Origin: Pseudonocardiales bacterium
GTDB lineage: Bacteria > Actinomycetota > Actinomycetes > Mycobacteriales > Pseudonocardiaceae
Assembly: GCA_019247305.1 (NCBI GenBank)
Contig: JAFAPC010000114.1
Span: forward strand, 1-64,000
Direction of reading: 5' to 3'
DNA: 64,000 nucleotides
The notes under the pieces: generated by a model
Database searches by the model: none
The model's input: the letters and a program-made list of their open reading frames with translations, nothing else
What the model was told of the DNA's origin: nothing
In this document: positions 21,818-29,580 of the stretch, in pieces
How positions within the stretch are numbered: the stretch's first letter is position 1
Layout: each line of letters opens with the position of its first letter
Translations under genes and position numbers: made by a program

Positions 21818-22149
21818 GCCGGAATCTCTCCCTCATCTGGCACTTTTTGGAGGGCACGCGGAGTGCACGGTGTGCTTGTGCATCCGGAACATGGGCGTGT
21901 TGCAATCAGCGCTGGATGGCACGGTGGCCGGCGACCTCAGCATCGATGATGCCTCCGCGCCAGCGCTCCTCGCCGGGGCTTGGTGTGCCGGGGCTGGTGC
22001 GCCGGGGTCGCAGGGGCCGCCCCACGGGACCGGTATCTCCACGTGTCCGACCGGTCGCACCGTCGGTGTCATGCTTGTGAGTGAGAAGTTAACTTTGGCG
22101 GCGCTACTTGACGCCCATCTGAGCTATAGGGTTCACTCATTAGCGCAGC

Positions 22150-22318
22150 ACCTCGTTCGGTGAGGCGTCGGCACGGACATAGGCCGCTGACCCTCCAGTG
22201 TCGAGAGACGCTCTGTGGTCAGGACAGGTCTCCCCGGGTTAAGGGGTGACCCCAAGCGGCTTTCCGCCCGCACGGGTGGGAGTACGCCGTGCCGTGCCAA
22301 AGCTCTGACGAGGGGGTG
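22150..22318 (+). promoter_or_regulatory. M-box (ykoK) magnesium riboswitch
   Basis: The conserved M-box blocks occur in order: ctcgttcggtgagg at the 5' end, ggacataggccgctgaccc, gtcgagagacgc, ggtca..cagg, ttaaggggtgaccccaagc, then aaagctctgacgagggggt. The closing helix forms between ctcgt (22153) and acgag (22308). M-box RNAs bind Mg2+ and shut off downstream genes when Mg2+ is plentiful. A TTGACG hexamer at 22108 may be part of the promoter. It lies about 240 bp before the NRAMP gene. Confidence 0.93.
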
Positions 22319-22559
22319 CCTGGGCCTGACTCGCCTGTGTGGGTGCGGGCGTCCTCGCTGCGTGCGCACTTTCGTGACGGCACCCGCGTGTGCCCCGGCG
22401 GCGAGGAGGTGGGTCATGGGTACGGATGACGGTCCTAGTCCCGGTCCGCATATCCCCGTTCCTCTTGTCCACTGCGTGCGCGCCGATCAAGGCTGACCGC
22501 GGGATCCACCGCAGGGTGTGAGCCTTTGGCGGACGCTCGCCCGCCGAAGGGATGGTCTG

Positions 22560-24254
22560 ATGACCACCAACATCACCGGAACCAACGGGGACGGCGCGCC
22601 ACCGGGCACCCGCGCGGACAGCGCACCGGTGCGCAGCAGCGCGGTGCTGGACGAGGCGCATCTGGGTGACATCCAGGGCGCGATGGGCACGATCCGCCTC
22701 GCTGACCAGGGCGCTCGCACCAGCCTGTCGGCCCGGGTGAAGACGTTGCTGGCGATCGTGGGTCCCGGCCTGATCGTGATGGTCGGCGACAATGATGCCG
22801 GCGCGTTTGGCACCTACACCCAGGCCGGGCAGAACTACGGCACCCGGCTGCTGTGGACGTTGTTGTTGCTGGTTCCGGTGCTGTATGTGAACCAGGAGAT
22901 GGTGCTGCGGCTGGGCGCGGTGACCGGGGTGGGGCACGCCCGGTTGATCCTGGAGCGGTTCGGGCGGTTCTGGGGTGCGTTCAGCGTGATCGACTTATTC
23001 CTGCTCAACGCGCTGACCATCGTCACGGAGTTCATCGGCATCAGCCTCGGGCTGTCCTACCTGGGGCTGCCTCAGGTGCCCGGGGTGCTGATCTCCGCGG
23101 TGGTGGTCGTCGCTGCGGCGTCCACGGGGAGTTTCCGGCGCTTTGAGCGGATCTGTCTGGCGCTCGTCGCGGGCAGCCTGCTGCTGGTGCCGATCGTGGT
23201 CATGGCGCACCCCCCGCTGGGCCGCCTCACCCGTGACTTCGTGCTGCCCGGGCTGCCTGCCGGGGCGGAGCTGTCCACGGTGATGCTGCTGATCATCGCG
23301 ATCGTTGGCACCACCATCGCGCCTTGGCAGCTGTTTTTCCAGCAGTCCTACGTCATCGACAAGCGGATCACCCCGCGGTTCATCGGCTACGAGAAGGCCG
23401 ACCTGTGGATCGGGATCGTCATCGTGGTTCTGGGCGCGGGGGCGATGATGGCCTTTTGCACCACCGCGTTTACCGGAGGGCCACAGTTCGGGCAGTTCAC
23501 CGACGCCGGCGGGGTCGCCGCCGGGCTGGGCACCAACGTCAACCACGCGGCGGGGGTGCTGTTCGCGCTCGCGCTGATCGACGCCAGCATCATCGGGGCC
23601 GCCGCCGTCTCCCTCGCGACGGCCTACGCGATCGGCGACGTGCTGGGGCTGCGGCACTCCCTGCACCGCAGCCCGAAGGAGGCCAAGGGCTTCTACGTGG
23701 TCTTTGCCGGGTTGCTGGTCTGCGCGGCGGTGATCGTGATCATTCCGGGTAGCCCGCTGGGGCTGCTCACCGAGGGCGTGCAGACCCTGGCCGGGGTGTT
23801 GCTGCCCTCGGCGACGGTGTTCCTGCTGCTGCTGTGCAACGACCGCCAGGTCCTGGGCCCCTGGGTCAATAGCCGGGCCCTCAACGTGTTCACCTCAGCG
23901 GTGATCGCGGTACTGGTGCTGCTCTCCGTGGTGCTCACCGCCGCCGTCCTCTTCCCCGACATCACCAGCACCGCCATCTTGACCATCCTGGCCATCGGCG
24001 TCGCCCTGGCCGTGCTCGCCGGTCTCGTGCTGCTCGTCGGGCACCGGCTGCACCGCGCGCCGGCCAGCGCCGATCCGCCGCCGCTGGACCGCCGCCTGCG
24101 GGCCACCTGGCGGATGCCGCCCCTGGCGCTGCTCACCCGGCCGCCGCTGAGCACCGGCCGCCGGCTCGGGCTCACCGTGCTGCGCGGCTACCTGGTCATC
24201 GCCGCGGGCATGGTCGTCGTCCGGGTCGTCCAACTCGCCCTCGCCGGCCACTAG
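22560..24254 (+). CDS. NRAMP-family transporter with altered metal site, likely Mg2+ (NRMT-like)
   Basis: A 564-residue protein with 11-12 membrane segments of the NRAMP fold. In canonical NRAMP proteins helix 1 carries DPGN and helix 6 MPH(N). Here helix 1 reads GDNDAGAFG (about residue 76) and helix 6 TIAPWQLFF (about residue 251), so the soft-metal-binding Met and the Asn are gone. NRAMP-related magnesium transporters share this type of change. The upstream M-box independently points to Mg2+. ATG 22560 follows AAGGGATGG; the frame opens at 22518. A soluble MgtE-like gene follows. Confidence 0.88.
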   Translation: MTTNITGTNGDGAPPGTRADSAPVRSSAVLDEAHLGDIQGAMGTIRLADQGARTSLSARVKTLLAIVGPGLIVMVGDNDAGAFGTYTQAGQNYGTRLLWTLLLLVPVLYVNQEMVLRLGAVTGVGHARLILERFGRFWGAFSVIDLFLLNALTIVTEFIGISLGLSYLGLPQVPGVLISAVVVVAAASTGSFRRFERICLALVAGSLLLVPIVVMAHPPLGRLTRDFVLPGLPAGAELSTVMLLIIAIVGTTIAPWQLFFQQSYVIDKRITPRFIGYEKADLWIGIVIVVLGAGAMMAFCTTAFTGGPQFGQFTDAGGVAAGLGTNVNHAAGVLFALALIDASIIGAAAVSLATAYAIGDVLGLRHSLHRSPKEAKGFYVVFAGLLVCAAVIVIIPGSPLGLLTEGVQTLAGVLLPSATVFLLLLCNDRQVLGPWVNSRALNVFTSAVIAVLVLLSVVLTAAVLFPDITSTAILTILAIGVALAVLAGLVLLVGHRLHRAPASADPPPLDRRLRATWRMPPLALLTRPPLSTGRRLGLTVLRGYLVIAAGMVVVRVVQLALAGH

Positions 24255-24370
24255 CCCATGATCAAATCGAACAACCCCTACCCGACGCGGGTTTCCCGCG
24301 CCAGGATCGGATGTAACGCCCTAACCTACCGTCCACGACGACCCCGGATGCCACAGAAGGAAGCCTGGTC

Positions 24371-25768
24371 ATGAGCATGACCCCGCAGCCGCCGAGCGCC
24401 ACCTCCAGCCAGAATCCCGCCGCGCACCGACCCGCCGCGCTCGGACGGACGCTGTCGTTGTCGCGGCTGCTCAGCCGGGCCGTGGTCGGGGCGCGCGGGC
24501 AGAAGCTAGGCCGGCTGTCCGACGTGATCGTCCGGCTGCGTGGCACCGACTATCCGCTGGTCACCGGACTGGTCGCGGACATCGGGGGGCGCCGGGTGTT
24601 CGTGCCCGCCGAGGCCGTGACCGACTGGGGCACCGAGCAGGTGCTGCTGGCCAGCGCCCGGGTCGACCTGCGGGAGTTCGGACGCCGAGCTGGCGAGGTG
24701 CTGCTGCGCGCTGACATTCTTGGCCACCGGCTCATCGACATTCCCCGGGCGCGGCTGGTCCGGGCCTATGACTTGGAGCTTCGGGACACCGGAGGGGGTT
24801 GGGTGCTGGCCGGGGTGGACACCCGTCAGGCTAGCTGGTGGCGCCGGGCGCTGGGCCTGGCCCGCTCCGCCCCGGGCCAACCCGGCGAGGGTGAGCTCGC
24901 TGAAACGGGGTGTCGGGACTGGAAGGCGTTCGAGGCGTTGATCGGGCACGAGCCCTCGGTGCTGCTGCGCACGCCGACGGGCCGGCTGCGCCGGCTCAAG
25001 CCCGCGCAGATCGCCGACCTGCTCGAACAGGCCTCCCACCAGGAGCAGACCGAGCTGCTCGGTCAGGTCCACGCCGACCCCGAGCTGGAGGCCGACGTGT
25101 TCGAAGAACTCGACGACGACCGCCAATCCCGGCTGCTGCGCGACCGCACCGACTCTGAGGTCGCCGGTGTGCTGGCCCGGATGCGCGCCGACGACGCCGC
25201 CGACGCCATCGCCGACCTGCCCCAGGACCGCCGCCAACCCGTGCTCGATCGACTCCCCGCCGGCCAGCGCGCCAAGGTGATTGCCCTGATGGGCTACAAC
25301 CCGACCAGCGCTGGCGGGCTGATGAGCCTGGACTTCCTCGCGCTGCCCCGGGACACCCCGGTCGCCGTCGCACTGGAGCGGGTGCGCACGGCCCGCACCC
25401 TGCAGCCCGAAGCGCTGGCCACCGTGTTCAGCCTCAACCCCCGGGGCAAGCTGCGGGGCGCGGCCAGCCTGGTCGCCCTGGTCCAGGCCGACGCCGACGC
25501 CCTGCTGCGCACCGTCGCCGACCCGGACCCCATCCGGGTCCACCCCGACGCCGACCTGATCGACATCACCCTGCTGATGACCGACTACAACCTGCTCAAC
25601 CTGCCCGTCATCGACGACGATGACCACGTCATCGGCGTCATCACCGTCGATGACGTGCTCGAGTCCTCACTCCCGCGCAACTGGCGCCGCCGCGAACCCG
25701 CAAACCACCCGGAGTCCACCGACGAAGACACCGAATCCCATCCCACCGCCGACACCGGCCCGCGCTAA
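24371..25768 (+). CDS. PRC-barrel, MgtE N-terminal and CBS domain protein without membrane part
   Basis: A 465-residue soluble protein. Residues 25-150 are PRC-barrel-like (GQKLGRLSDVIVRL). Residues 210-310 form the MgtE N superhelical domain (LKPAQIADLLEQ, MRADDAADAIADLP), ending in the hallmark TSAGGLM. Two CBS motifs follow (VITVDDVLESS near the end). In MgtE these cytosolic domains sense Mg2+ and close the pore; here the MgtE pore is absent. Following an NRAMP transporter behind an M-box, it is probably that transporter's regulatory partner (inference). ATG has GAAGGAAG upstream. The tail is disordered, rich in Pro, Glu and Thr. Confidence 0.88.
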   Translation: MSMTPQPPSATSSQNPAAHRPAALGRTLSLSRLLSRAVVGARGQKLGRLSDVIVRLRGTDYPLVTGLVADIGGRRVFVPAEAVTDWGTEQVLLASARVDLREFGRRAGEVLLRADILGHRLIDIPRARLVRAYDLELRDTGGGWVLAGVDTRQASWWRRALGLARSAPGQPGEGELAETGCRDWKAFEALIGHEPSVLLRTPTGRLRRLKPAQIADLLEQASHQEQTELLGQVHADPELEADVFEELDDDRQSRLLRDRTDSEVAGVLARMRADDAADAIADLPQDRRQPVLDRLPAGQRAKVIALMGYNPTSAGGLMSLDFLALPRDTPVAVALERVRTARTLQPEALATVFSLNPRGKLRGAASLVALVQADADALLRTVADPDPIRVHPDADLIDITLLMTDYNLLNLPVIDDDDHVIGVITVDDVLESSLPRNWRRREPANHPESTDEDTESHPTADTGPR

Positions 25769-25860
25769 GGCGCCCCCACCAGGCAGCCGATCAGACGGAT
25801 GCCGCGCCAGGACCACCCCGACACGCGGCCATCGCCCGCGCCGCGCTTGCGGCCTTTCGA

Positions 25861-28800
25861 TCAGGTAGTTCCCCACGGGCACAGGGGCTGATATTTCACG
25901 TCAGACAGGTAATGGTCCCACTGGCTCTTGGTGAGAGCGGGCGTGATGTTACAGATTCGAGCGGCGATATAGTTGACGTTGGTTTCCCACAGTCGCACAG
26001 TAGCGTCGTCGCTGGCGGTGGCCAGGGTATGTCTGTCGGGGCTGAACGCCACCGAATAGACAGCCTTGGTGTGGCCGGTGAGGGTCCCCAGCAGTGTGGG
26101 CTGGTCGGGATCACGGACATTCCATAACCGTACGGTTTTGTCGTAGCTACCAGTGGCCAGAGTATGCCCGTCGCCGCTGAAAGCCACCGAAAAGACGGTA
26201 CCAGCGTGGCCAGTGAGGGTACTTAGTGGGTGAAAATGGTGGGAGTCGCTGACATCCCATAACCGTGTAGTGTTGTCGTCGCTGCTGGTAGCTAGAGTAC
26301 GGCTATCTGGGCTGAACGCCACCGAATAGACAGCCTTGGTGTGGCCGGTGAGGGTCCCCAGCAGTGTGGGCTGGTCGGGATCACGGACATTCCATAACCG
26401 TACGGTTTTGTCGTAGCTACCAGTGGCCAGAATATGCCCGTCAGGGCTGAAGGCCACCGAGGTGACACTCGTGCTGTGGTCGGTGAGGGTTCTCAGCAGG
26501 CTGGGTTGGCCTGGGTCGCTGACATTCCATAACCGGACGGTTTTGTCATAGCTACCAGTGGCCAGAGTGCGCCCGTCTGGGCTAAAGGCTACCGAGGAGA
26601 CGGGATTGGTATAAACGGTCATGGTGGGCCCAGGAAGGTCCCATAACCGCGCGGTTTTGTCGTCGCTGCCGGTAGCCAAAGTATGGCTATCAGGGCTGAA
26701 CGCCACCGAGAAGACACCCTCGGCGTGGCCGGTGAGGGGTGAGCCCAGCAGTCTGGGCTGGTAGGGGTCATGGACATTCCATAACCGCGCGGTTTTGTCG
26801 TCGCTGCCGGTAGCCAAAGTATGTCCGTCACCGCTGAAAGCCACCGAAAAGACGGTACCGGCGTGGCCAGTGAGGGTGCTTAGTGGGCGGGAATGGGGGG
26901 AGTCGCTGACATCCCATAACCGTGCAGTGTTGTCGTCGCTGCCGGTAGCCAAAGTACGGCTATCAGGGCTGAACGCCACCGAGAAGACAGCCTTGGTGTG
27001 GCCGGTAAGGGTATTCAGCGGGTGGGGCTGGCGGGGGTCGCTAACATCCCATAACCGCACGGTCATGTCGTAGCTACCAGTGGCCAGGGTATGCCCGTCA
27101 CCGCTGAAAGCCAGCGACGAGACAGCTCCCATGTGGCCAGTGAGGGCATGTAGTAAGTAGGGATGTTGTGGGTCGCGGACATTCCACAGCCGCACGGTGG
27201 CATCGCCGCTTCCGGTGGCCAGAGTGCTCCCGTCGGGACTGAAGGCCACCGAGTAGACACCGTTGACGTGGTCGGGAAGAGACCCTAGCAGTCTGGGCTG
27301 GCCGGGGTCATGGACATCCCACAATCGTACGAGATTATTTAAGCTGCCGGTGGCCAGAGTATGCCCGTCGGGGCTGAAGGCCACCGACGAGATGAATGAG
27401 ATGAATTTTTTAATGTCAGCGGTGAGAAAACCCAGTAGATTGGGATGGTAGAGGTCGTTAGCATTCCATAACCGCACGGTGCCATCGTCGCTGCCGGTGG
27501 CCAGGGTATGCCCGTCGGGGCTGAAGGCTACCGAGTGAATGCCGTCGGCGTGGCCGGTGAGTGGGGTGGCGTAGGGGGTGGCGAAGGTGTTGAGCAGACT
27601 GTTGCGGGCTTCTGTGGTGGGGGCAAGCCGGTAGGCGGCCAGGCTTAGTTGGGCGGCCAGGGCCGGGCTTGTGTCGCGGAGTCTCATCGCCTGGCCCGCG
27701 ACCTGTTGGGATATCGCGACATCACGTTGCTTTGCGGTGCGTTGCTGAACGAAAGTGACAACGGCCACCGCCAGGATGAAGACAAGTGGTATCGACAGGA
27801 CAGCGGCGGTGGTGCGCCTGCGTCGGACGTGGTCGCAGCGGATGCTGGCGTGTAGGAACGCCCGCGCTGTTGAGCTGAGCTCGACGTGGTCGGTGACCAG
27901 GTCGCCGGTCTGAAGGTGGGCGCCGGTGTCGGATATCGCGGCGGCGAGTTGGCCGCGTTCCCACAACCGGGTCGGTGAGCGGCCATGGTCGTGCCATTCA
28001 GCGGCCGCCTGCTCGACTGCCCGGCGGGCCTGCAGCGCTGGCTTGCTCTTCTCGATCGCCTGGGCTAAGGGTGTCCAGGCGGTCAGGAATGCCTCGTGGG
28101 CGACCTCGACGACCACGCTGCCGTTGTGAGTGTCGGTGCTCACCAGTCGTCGTGTGACGAAGGCGTCCAGCTCTCGGGTCACCGGCTCAGACAAGTCATC
28201 GCGGGGGACCCGCCATCGGGTGGGACGACCCTGCTCGTCCACGGTGACCAACCGCAACAGCCCGGCCATGACCTCCTCGGCACGTCGGCCACTAGCCGCA
28301 CTCGCGTCGGCCAGAGCCACGTCTGCTTGATGAACCAGGGCACCCTGCACCCCGCCGAACTGCTCGTAAAGCACAGTTGACAGCTGGCTGTCGCGCCCGA
28401 CTCCCTCGGCAAGCCGGTCCAGGGTGAACGCCAGCAGCGGCAGCGCTTCGCCGCTGTCGGTGTCGGTGACCAGCCGCGCCACCAGTTCGTCGTCGATTTT
28501 GATTCCGGCCAGCCGGGCCGGGCCTTCGATCACCACTCGCAGCGCCTCGCGGCTCAGCGGTCGCAGGGTGAAGGTCCGAGTCGGCAATTCCTTCGGGTCA
28601 GAGTCGTCCTTTAGCTGGTCTAGCTGGTCCAGGAACTCCGGCCGTAGCGTGGCCACCACCTGTACCCGGCCGCCCAACGCTGAGCGCAGCAGCTGCGCGA
28701 ACCGGGCCCGCTCACCCGGCCCGCTCTGGGTGAGCAGCTCCTCAAACTGATCCACCACCACGAGCAGCCGCCGGGCCCGCGCAGCCAGGAGCAGGTCATC

Positions 28801-29580
28801 GACCAGCCCCGTCAGGCCGGTCTCATCGAGCTGGTGGCGCACCTGCGCTACCGTCCACCCCAACTCCAGCCGCTGCGCCGCGACGGCCAGCTCTCGGGCC
28901 AACCCAGTCACTGGGTCGGTGCCGGGCAGCATCGCCGGCAGCGTCCACCAGCCCGGCTCGGCCGTCATCACCGGCAGCAACCCAGCCCGCACCAGTGACG
29001 ACTTGCCGCACCCGGAGGGGCCCACCACCAGCAGCACCGCCCCCTCAGCCCGCTCAGCGGGAGACCGCAACAGCGCGGCCAGCTGATTCACCTCCTGGCC
29101 ACGGCCGAAGAAGACCCGATGATCCTCCACCCCGAACGCACGCAGCCCCGGAAACGGTGGCCGGCCATCGGGCCACCCCCAACCCCCGGCAGCATCAATC
29201 CGACGTAACGCCTCCACCAGCGCCGCACGGGCTTTGGTGTGATCCTTGGTGAGATCGGCGTACTGCGCGGACTTCACCAGCGAGTGATCCACTCCCGGCT
29301 CGGCCAGCACTGGCAACAGCCGACTATCCAGCGCCCGGGCGTAACCCACCTCGTAGGGACACCACGCCGAGGCCAGGAAAGCCGACGTGACCACACAGAC
29401 CACCGCATCGGCCCAGCGCAGCCGCTCCAGCAGCTTCTGCTCCCACTCCTCACCCACCACCATGCCATCGCGCAGGTCCCGGTCCAGGAACACCTCATGT
29501 CCCTCAGCCACCAACCACCGGTACACCTCATCGGTAGGCTCCGGATCATCATTGGCATGGCTGACGAAAACCCTGGCCAC
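25861..29580 (-). CDS. TIR-nSTAND NTPase-WD40 repeat protein
   Basis: A 1239-residue protein. Residues 1-130 are a TIR domain (VFVSHANDD start; SAWCPYEVGYA holds the Trp-Cys-x-x-Glu position of NAD-cleaving TIRs). Next comes an nSTAND-type NTPase with Walker A GPSGCGKSS (about 187) and Walker B LLVVVDQFEELL (about 275). A single membrane-like segment lies near residue 597 (IPLVFILAVAVVTFV). Twelve WD40 repeats (LATGSDDKTARLWDV type) fill residues 680-1215. The start GTG has GGGGAGGTGG upstream. Such proteins are thought to oligomerise on a signal and trigger the TIR enzyme, often in phage defence. It stands alone and converges on the MgtE-like gene. Confidence 0.9.
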   Translation of the reverse strand: MARVFVSHANDDPEPTDEVYRWLVAEGHEVFLDRDLRDGMVVGEEWEQKLLERLRWADAVVCVVTSAFLASAWCPYEVGYARALDSRLLPVLAEPGVDHSLVKSAQYADLTKDHTKARAALVEALRRIDAAGGWGWPDGRPPFPGLRAFGVEDHRVFFGRGQEVNQLAALLRSPAERAEGAVLLVVGPSGCGKSSLVRAGLLPVMTAEPGWWTLPAMLPGTDPVTGLARELAVAAQRLELGWTVAQVRHQLDETGLTGLVDDLLLAARARRLLVVVDQFEELLTQSGPGERARFAQLLRSALGGRVQVVATLRPEFLDQLDQLKDDSDPKELPTRTFTLRPLSREALRVVIEGPARLAGIKIDDELVARLVTDTDSGEALPLLAFTLDRLAEGVGRDSQLSTVLYEQFGGVQGALVHQADVALADASAASGRRAEEVMAGLLRLVTVDEQGRPTRWRVPRDDLSEPVTRELDAFVTRRLVSTDTHNGSVVVEVAHEAFLTAWTPLAQAIEKSKPALQARRAVEQAAAEWHDHGRSPTRLWERGQLAAAISDTGAHLQTGDLVTDHVELSSTARAFLHASIRCDHVRRRRTTAAVLSIPLVFILAVAVVTFVQQRTAKQRDVAISQQVAGQAMRLRDTSPALAAQLSLAAYRLAPTTEARNSLLNTFATPYATPLTGHADGIHSVAFSPDGHTLATGSDDGTVRLWNANDLYHPNLLGFLTADIKKFISFISSVAFSPDGHTLATGSLNNLVRLWDVHDPGQPRLLGSLPDHVNGVYSVAFSPDGSTLATGSGDATVRLWNVRDPQHPYLLHALTGHMGAVSSLAFSGDGHTLATGSYDMTVRLWDVSDPRQPHPLNTLTGHTKAVFSVAFSPDSRTLATGSDDNTARLWDVSDSPHSRPLSTLTGHAGTVFSVAFSGDGHTLATGSDDKTARLWNVHDPYQPRLLGSPLTGHAEGVFSVAFSPDSHTLATGSDDKTARLWDLPGPTMTVYTNPVSSVAFSPDGRTLATGSYDKTVRLWNVSDPGQPSLLRTLTDHSTSVTSVAFSPDGHILATGSYDKTVRLWNVRDPDQPTLLGTLTGHTKAVYSVAFSPDSRTLATSSDDNTTRLWDVSDSHHFHPLSTLTGHAGTVFSVAFSGDGHTLATGSYDKTVRLWNVRDPDQPTLLGTLTGHTKAVYSVAFSPDRHTLATASDDATVRLWETNVNYIAARICNITPALTKSQWDHYLSDVKYQPLCPWGTT

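Follow-up and report, generated by a model that had tools for sequence, protein, structure and literature searches.

The stretch analysed here, below called the window (64,000 bp; positions 1 to 64,000 of contig JAFAPC010000114.1, assembly GCA_019247305.1, from a Pseudonocardiales bacterium), was found to contain an M-box magnesium riboswitch followed on the same strand by a gene for an NRMT-like transporter of the NRAMP family (nrmT) and by a gene for a detached MgtE sensor, i.e., a protein with the cytosolic Mg2+-sensing domains of MgtE and without its pore. We read the locus as a Mg2+-repressed uptake operon in which the soluble sensor would lower the activity of the importer at high Mg2+, a proposal to which we give an even chance of being correct. 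A pairing of this kind, of which the window shows a variant, was already described in 2014 by Shin et al. (PMC4072509), who reported that most nrmT genes adjoin a gene encoding the cytoplasmic domain of MgtE, with feedback offered as a speculation; the claim of an earlier note on this DNA that such a split arrangement had not been described therefore fails. The role of the partner was left open when the pairing was noticed. With its compact layout and conserved residues at the Mg2+ sites, the window provides a case for the gating idea. New here are the spread of the cassette in actinobacteria, the correlated distances within the pairs, the count of transporters lacking an adjoining partner (64/85), the upstream open reading frame (uORF) in 33/35 leaders and the linkage of distant sensor versions to DUF1003 genes.

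The Transporter Gene and Its M-Box

An Rfam search of the window detected a single M-box aptamer (ykoK leader, RF00380) at 22145..22322 (+), which scored above the gathering threshold across the full model (127.1 bits, gathering score 44, E 3.8e-28, model positions 1–169/169). The transporter gene is located at 22560..24254 (+); its open frame spans 22518-24254, and the ATG at 22560, with a Shine-Dalgarno sequence 5′ of it, was preferred to an alternative GTG at 22518. The product, a predicted Mg2+ importer, matched Pfam Nramp (E 1.9e-77). In a comparison with solved structures only, its closest relative was EleNRMT (7qia; 174.6 bits, E 3e-50), followed by chain 10ky (73.8 bits, E 1e-19), and the best MntH reached 48.8 bits (E 4e-12), by which the transporter appears to be nearer to NRMTs than to canonical NRAMPs.

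The metal site reads NDAGA (within DNDAGA) in transmembrane helix 1 (TM1) and TTIAPWQ in TM6, the canonical NRAMP metal-site motifs being DPGN and MPHN. The signature given for NRMTs is DxxG-TxxA/T (PMC8806188). Its TM6 part is present in the window transporter (TTIA) and its TM1 part is not matched, Asp being kept and Ala occupying the fourth position (DAGA); as one signature position thus differs (DxxA), the protein was named NRMT-like, DAGA subclade. Among 106 collected transporter genes, NDAGA was found in 85 and DAGG in the other 21, and GTT[VI]APWQ was present in TM6 of 104; as the named loci of this collection were the best 80 of 556 relatives, its counts lean to near kin.

The host genome was also found to encode an NRMT-like paralogue (C150:96758-98257, minus strand) with TTVEPWQ in TM6, which places Glu at the canonical Met-ligand position. 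This site was seen in only 1/106 collected transporters, and the paralogue has no adjoining M-box or partner gene.

The Detached MgtE Sensor

The sensor gene (24371..25768, +) starts 116 nt 3′ of the transporter gene on the same strand. Its product was shown by Pfam to contain a PRC-barrel region (residues 29-81), an MgtE_N domain (residues 209-311, E 1.7e-21) and a CBS pair (E 1.9e-12), and the MgtE pore domain PF01769 was not found in it with Pfam at E up to 0.1. By sequence it matched the MgtE cytosolic domains 2oux and 2yvy (E 3e-20). Its AlphaFold model had a mean pLDDT (predicted local distance difference test) of 84.6, and the ten best Foldseek matches of this model were all MgtE or Mg2+-transporter entries (E 1.5e-17 to 2.3e-15); these alignments had a root mean square deviation near 12.5 Å and a TM-score of 0.28 relative to the query, which probably reflects a different packing of the domains.

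Thermus MgtE numbering was tied to the sequence alignment via residues named in the available parts of PMC5529423 and PMC5882242, the latter of which also provided the roles of the Mg2+-site residues. Of 30 NRMT-linked partners, 25 were aligned after five near-duplicates or truncated sequences had been set aside, and in all 25 Asp occupies the positions equivalent to D91 and D247 (Mg4), D95 (Mg6) and E59 (Mg7). With an N domain and a CBS pair that carry the Mg4, Mg6 and Mg7 acids, the protein is predicted from its alignment to be an MgtE-type cytosolic Mg2+ sensor.

What the earlier note had observed was confirmed by these results, namely an M-box ahead of an NRAMP-like gene, DAGA and APWQ in place of DPGN and MPHN, and a next gene with MgtE N and CBS domains lacking the pore, the PRC-barrel region and the uORF having been omitted there. 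It had also taken the signs to point to Mg2+, and we likewise infer Mg2+ as the transporter substrate, which is well supported by the M-box, the EleNRMT-like transporter and the conserved acids of the MgtE Mg2+ sites.

Linkage of Transporter and Sensor in Genomes and Plasmids

The pair and the M-box were sought in other genomes. A survey of 249 genomes of the same order gave, among the matches listed, a separate group of 10 partner genes (at least 427 bits, the next match scoring 169). Nine of them were found to adjoin a close (W-type) relative of the transporter, and the contig of the tenth ends about 120 bp away. In the collection of 106 transporters, a partner was adjacent to 31. This was the case for 21/85 DAGA transporters (20 with the transporter first, one with the partner first) and for 10/21 non-DAGA transporters, all partner-first; five of the partner-first pairs overlap by 4 nt. 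Genes were called with a simple codon-score script, by which the sensor of one locus (L196, see below) among 32 sensor-DUF1003 loci was overlooked. Protein distances of transporter and partner were shown to correlate (r = 0.81 in a set of 15 pairs, 0.95 in one of 8 and 0.55 over all 24 pairs; p ≤ 6e-4 by permutation).

The partner also matched 22 plasmid records, with an identity of 48-56% in 13/15 among the matches listed. In each of three plasmid regions that were opened, it adjoins an annotated Nramp-family transporter, and two of the three plasmids, both typed conjugative, carry M-box, transporter and partner; the M-box was not found in the third plasmid region. The cassette is common in actinobacteria and present on two conjugative plasmids.

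A model of M-box and partner as interchangeable feedback layers was rejected as unsupported (sign test on a transporter tree made by a quick method under one model; median p 1, range 0.125-1; 8-9 independent pairs, little power).

A second sensor-transporter pair was detected in the host genome (C45). It has the partner first and a site reading AGNDAGG/GATISPYV; its sensor lacks the Mg6 Asp, and EleNRMT is the closest solved relative of its transporter (E 2e-91).

Sensor-DUF1003 Pairs

A partner match at E ≤ 0.001 was obtained in 246/249 genomes, a figure that is no count of detached sensors since such matches can include full-length MgtE. At least 138 genomes showed a second-tier match (about 30-35% identity) spanning the PRC, MgtE_N and CBS parts. 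Of these loci, 32 (L167-L178, L187-L206), largely from the top half of the matches listed, were fetched, and the sensor gene was called in 31. Each of the 31 sensor genes was followed directly, on its own strand, by a DUF1003 gene (with an 8-nt overlap in 22; four confirmed by Pfam), and in L196 a DUF1003 match lies directly beside the sensor. By coordinates, DUF1003 was found directly downstream on the same strand, at 68-275 bp, in 84/84 genomes among the matches listed for both, a set that overlaps with the 31 called loci. The acids of Mg4, Mg6 and Mg7 are Asp in 6/6 aligned DUF1003-linked sensors.

DUF1003 was present in 229/249 genomes and the MgtE pore in 45/249. A sensor match (E ≤ 1e-22) was accompanied by DUF1003 in 226/229 genomes, compared to 3/20 genomes without such a match (Fisher p 1e-20), and the MgtE pore was found in 16/20 genomes lacking DUF1003 compared to 29/229 genomes with it (Fisher p 3e-10); these counts were read by eye, the threshold of 1e-22 was chosen after seeing the data, and kinship was left uncorrected, so that the genomes are not independent. 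Two of the three genomes with a sensor match and without DUF1003, that of the window and G114, have NRMT-linked sensors. This pattern of co-presence suggests an exchangeable Mg2+-sensing subunit.

DUF1003 is listed by Pfam as a domain of unknown function; its predicted fold was of low confidence (pLDDT 72.6, pTM 0.30), and a literature search found two papers that mention DUF1003 and none that mentions both DUF1003 and MgtE. We tentatively propose, with slightly less than even confidence, that PRC-MgtE_N-CBS proteins are general detached Mg2+-sensing subunits acting on unrelated membrane proteins, NRMT in one case and, in the majority of the Mycobacteriales genomes sampled, DUF1003 in the other, where the sensor-DUF1003 pair would replace full-length MgtE. 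On this view, DUF1003 proteins would be membrane proteins, and perhaps transporters, under the control of Mg2+, and MgtE would represent a fused version of a modular regulator with a wider distribution.

The Leader and Its uORF

Between aptamer and transporter gene, a Shine-Dalgarno-led uORF of 26 codons plus stop (MGTDDGPSPGPHIPVPLVHCVRADQG) was found at 22416..22496 (+), 93 nt 3′ of the aptamer. A comparable uORF, starting 30-110 nt after the aptamer, is present in 33/35 nrmT-linked M-box leaders, the window included (dinucleotide shuffles of these leaders averaged 0.98 and reached at most 5; the 35 include two M-boxes lying further upstream, L058 and L056), and in 26/41 other M-boxes. Many of the peptides, in Streptomyces and in genomes read as mycobacteria, start with Ser-Pro-Gly-[Asp/His]-Ser, and Ser/Pro-rich uORFs are frequent in these leaders. 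Strong selection on the peptide was considered and found to be unsupported: pN/pS was 0.78, 0.77, and 1.07 in three groups, which points to weak or absent selection at the peptide level.

Two candidate mechanisms of control were tried. Use of an intrinsic terminator was rejected, since a search of 21900-25900 gave a single terminator-like site, which falls within the transporter gene and does not exceed chance. The model of the mycobacterial M-box, in which an anti-Shine-Dalgarno (aSD) sequence sequesters SD2, gave a strong signal in the window (z −2.7) but none above shuffles over 34 leaders (mean z −0.39), so that aSD-SD2 sequestration is only suggestive for these leaders.

The M-box uORF2/Rv1805A peptide upstream of pe20 in Mycobacterium tuberculosis is called specific for mycobacteria in the available part of D'Halluin et al. 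(PMC12810186). The window uORF resembles uORF2, a putative homology that rests on position and layout and not on the letters of the peptide. Because equivalents precede nrmT in other actinobacteria, the uORF is suggested to be a part of the M-box leader and not of the PE/PPE system.

A second M-box of the host genome (C26:3373-3555, minus strand) has no transporter recognised within 3.4 kb downstream. It is followed by a 26-codon uORF and then by a small hydrophobic open reading frame of 62 aa, a homologue of which (50% identical) was found between M-box and nrmT in another locus, L087.

Proposed Mechanism and Alternative Explanations

At low cytosolic Mg2+, the M-box would leave the downstream leader translated, probably via the uORF (no intrinsic terminator having been found), and the NRMT-like importer, which is presumed to be uncoupled from protons, would be made together with the soluble PRC-MgtE_N-CBS protein. 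The latter may bind Mg2+ at the interface of N domain and CBS pair, as in MgtE, and at high Mg2+ it would bind the cytosolic side of the importer, whereupon uptake would fall. Such gating of the importer by the detached sensor is plausible. In favour of the mechanism are the M-box, EleNRMT as by far the nearest solved relative of the transporter, Trp in place of the TM6b histidine, the adjacency and 4-nt overlaps of the two genes, their correlated distances, the invariant Mg4, Mg6 and Mg7 acids and the joint presence of all three elements on two conjugative plasmids. Should the sensor act in trans, the gating of MgtE would exemplify a portable module for Mg2+ sensing, and a functional lead would be obtained for DUF1003.

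Several observations weigh against this mechanism. In the partners, the equivalent of D226 (Mg5) is Asn in 24/25 (that of D250 being acidic in 24/25), the equivalents of the plug-helix residues E258 and D259 (Mg2/Mg3) are mostly Arg, as placed by ungapped extension beyond the aligned part, and the ATP-site residues R187, D188, and F227 are not conserved; the window sensor has N407 and E431 at the Mg5 positions and R439 and R440 at Mg2/Mg3, the last two again by ungapped extension. Going by these residues, much of the Mg2+-sensing face is retained and the regions that link it to the MgtE pore and to ATP are lost. Moreover, 64 of the 85 DAGA transporters have no adjoining partner, and 18 of these 64 have an M-box (one of the 64 loci ends at its downstream side, and eleven table rows are near contig ends). 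M-box and partner were not associated on the transporter tree, with little power at 8-9 independent pairs, and aSD:SD2 pairing over the 34 leaders was no better than in shuffles. The correlated divergence shows joint inheritance and may reflect nothing more; contact is not implied by it. As regards published assays, co-expression of the partner from Acidobacterium capsulatum gave no further Mg2+ rescue and the C. acetobutylicum transporters were assayed without a partner (Shin et al., PMC4072509), and purified EleNRMT transports after reconstitution without one (PMC8806188). No later functional test of the partner was noticed in literature searches, as judged from their listings.

The partner may instead be a co-regulated cytosolic Mg2+ buffer, or a sensor with another target, beside an importer that takes up Mg2+ under the M-box. 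The many DAGA transporters without a partner, the one published partner test without effect and the DUF1003 neighbours of distant sensor versions would fit such a role, whereas tight adjacency, the 4-nt overlaps in five pairs and the correlated divergence suggest a joint function, and we regard this explanation as possible though on the unlikely side. It is rather doubtful that the main substrate of the transporter is a different divalent metal, either Mn2+ or a mix, with the Mg2+ signs due only to cross-regulation. NrmT of A. capsulatum, which has a partner and no M-box, behaved as a Mn2+ transporter with full rescue of a Mn2+ defect (PMC4072509), EleNRMT carries both Mg2+ and Mn2+ without proton coupling (Ramanadane et al. 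2022, PMC8806188), and the window site is DxxA instead of the published DxxG; however, the window transporter does have an M-box, which Shin et al. (PMC4072509) took as a predictor of Mg2+ specificity, and has lost the soft Met ligand. Passive hitchhiking of functionally unlinked proteins in a mobile cassette would account for the pair being found on plasmids and in scattered lineages, but adjacency is kept in both gene orders and the acids of three Mg2+ sites are invariant, which makes it highly improbable. The Mg2+-repressed operon with an inhibitory sensor is the reading that we retain at the strength given above.

Other Genes of the Host Genome

The MgtE pore domain PF01769 gave no match in the host assembly; as this is 87.7% complete with 6.9% contamination, the absence is uncertain. 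The assembly contains one CorA gene, three Nramp-domain genes by Pfam (compared to four matches to the transporter by sequence search) and two MgtE_N genes, neither with a pore. In the window, the convergent neighbour of the sensor gene (25861-29580, minus strand) is predicted to encode a large nSTAND1 NTPase with WD40 repeats; its N-terminus looked TIR-like by eye, and TIR was not among the matches listed (25 of 49 Pfam matches).

Comparison with Known Systems

The locus shares with the nrmT loci of Shin et al. (PMC4072509) the M-box, a transporter related to NRAMP and predicted to carry Mg2+, and the adjacent gene for the N-terminal cytoplasmic domain of MgtE. The M-box-Nramp cases reported there were mostly from Clostridia and Deltaproteobacteria, whereas the window is from Actinomycetota and differs by having the transporter first, the DAGA site, the leader uORF and, as a possible further difference, a PRC-barrel region in the partner. 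EleNRMT, the nearest solved relative of the window transporter, has the same TTIAPW in TM6 and, as reported, the same exchange of the TM6b histidine for Trp that APWQ represents in the window. It differs in having DAGG instead of DAGA in TM1, the window transporter has a C-terminal stretch of about 100 residues outside the aligned part, and no partner gene is discussed for EleNRMT in the available part of PMC8806188. Compared to the MgtE cytosolic domain (2yvy, 2zy9), the sensor has kept the N domain, the CBS pair and D91, D95, D247, and E59 (as Asp), but lacks the pore and the ATP-site residues and contains an extra PRC-barrel region; in its model, no plug-like helix is predicted after the CBS pair. 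The leader is similar to that of the M. tuberculosis pe20 M-box, as described in the available part of PMC12810186, in that an M-box without intrinsic terminator is followed by a short Shine-Dalgarno-led uORF, except that the gene downstream is here nrmT.

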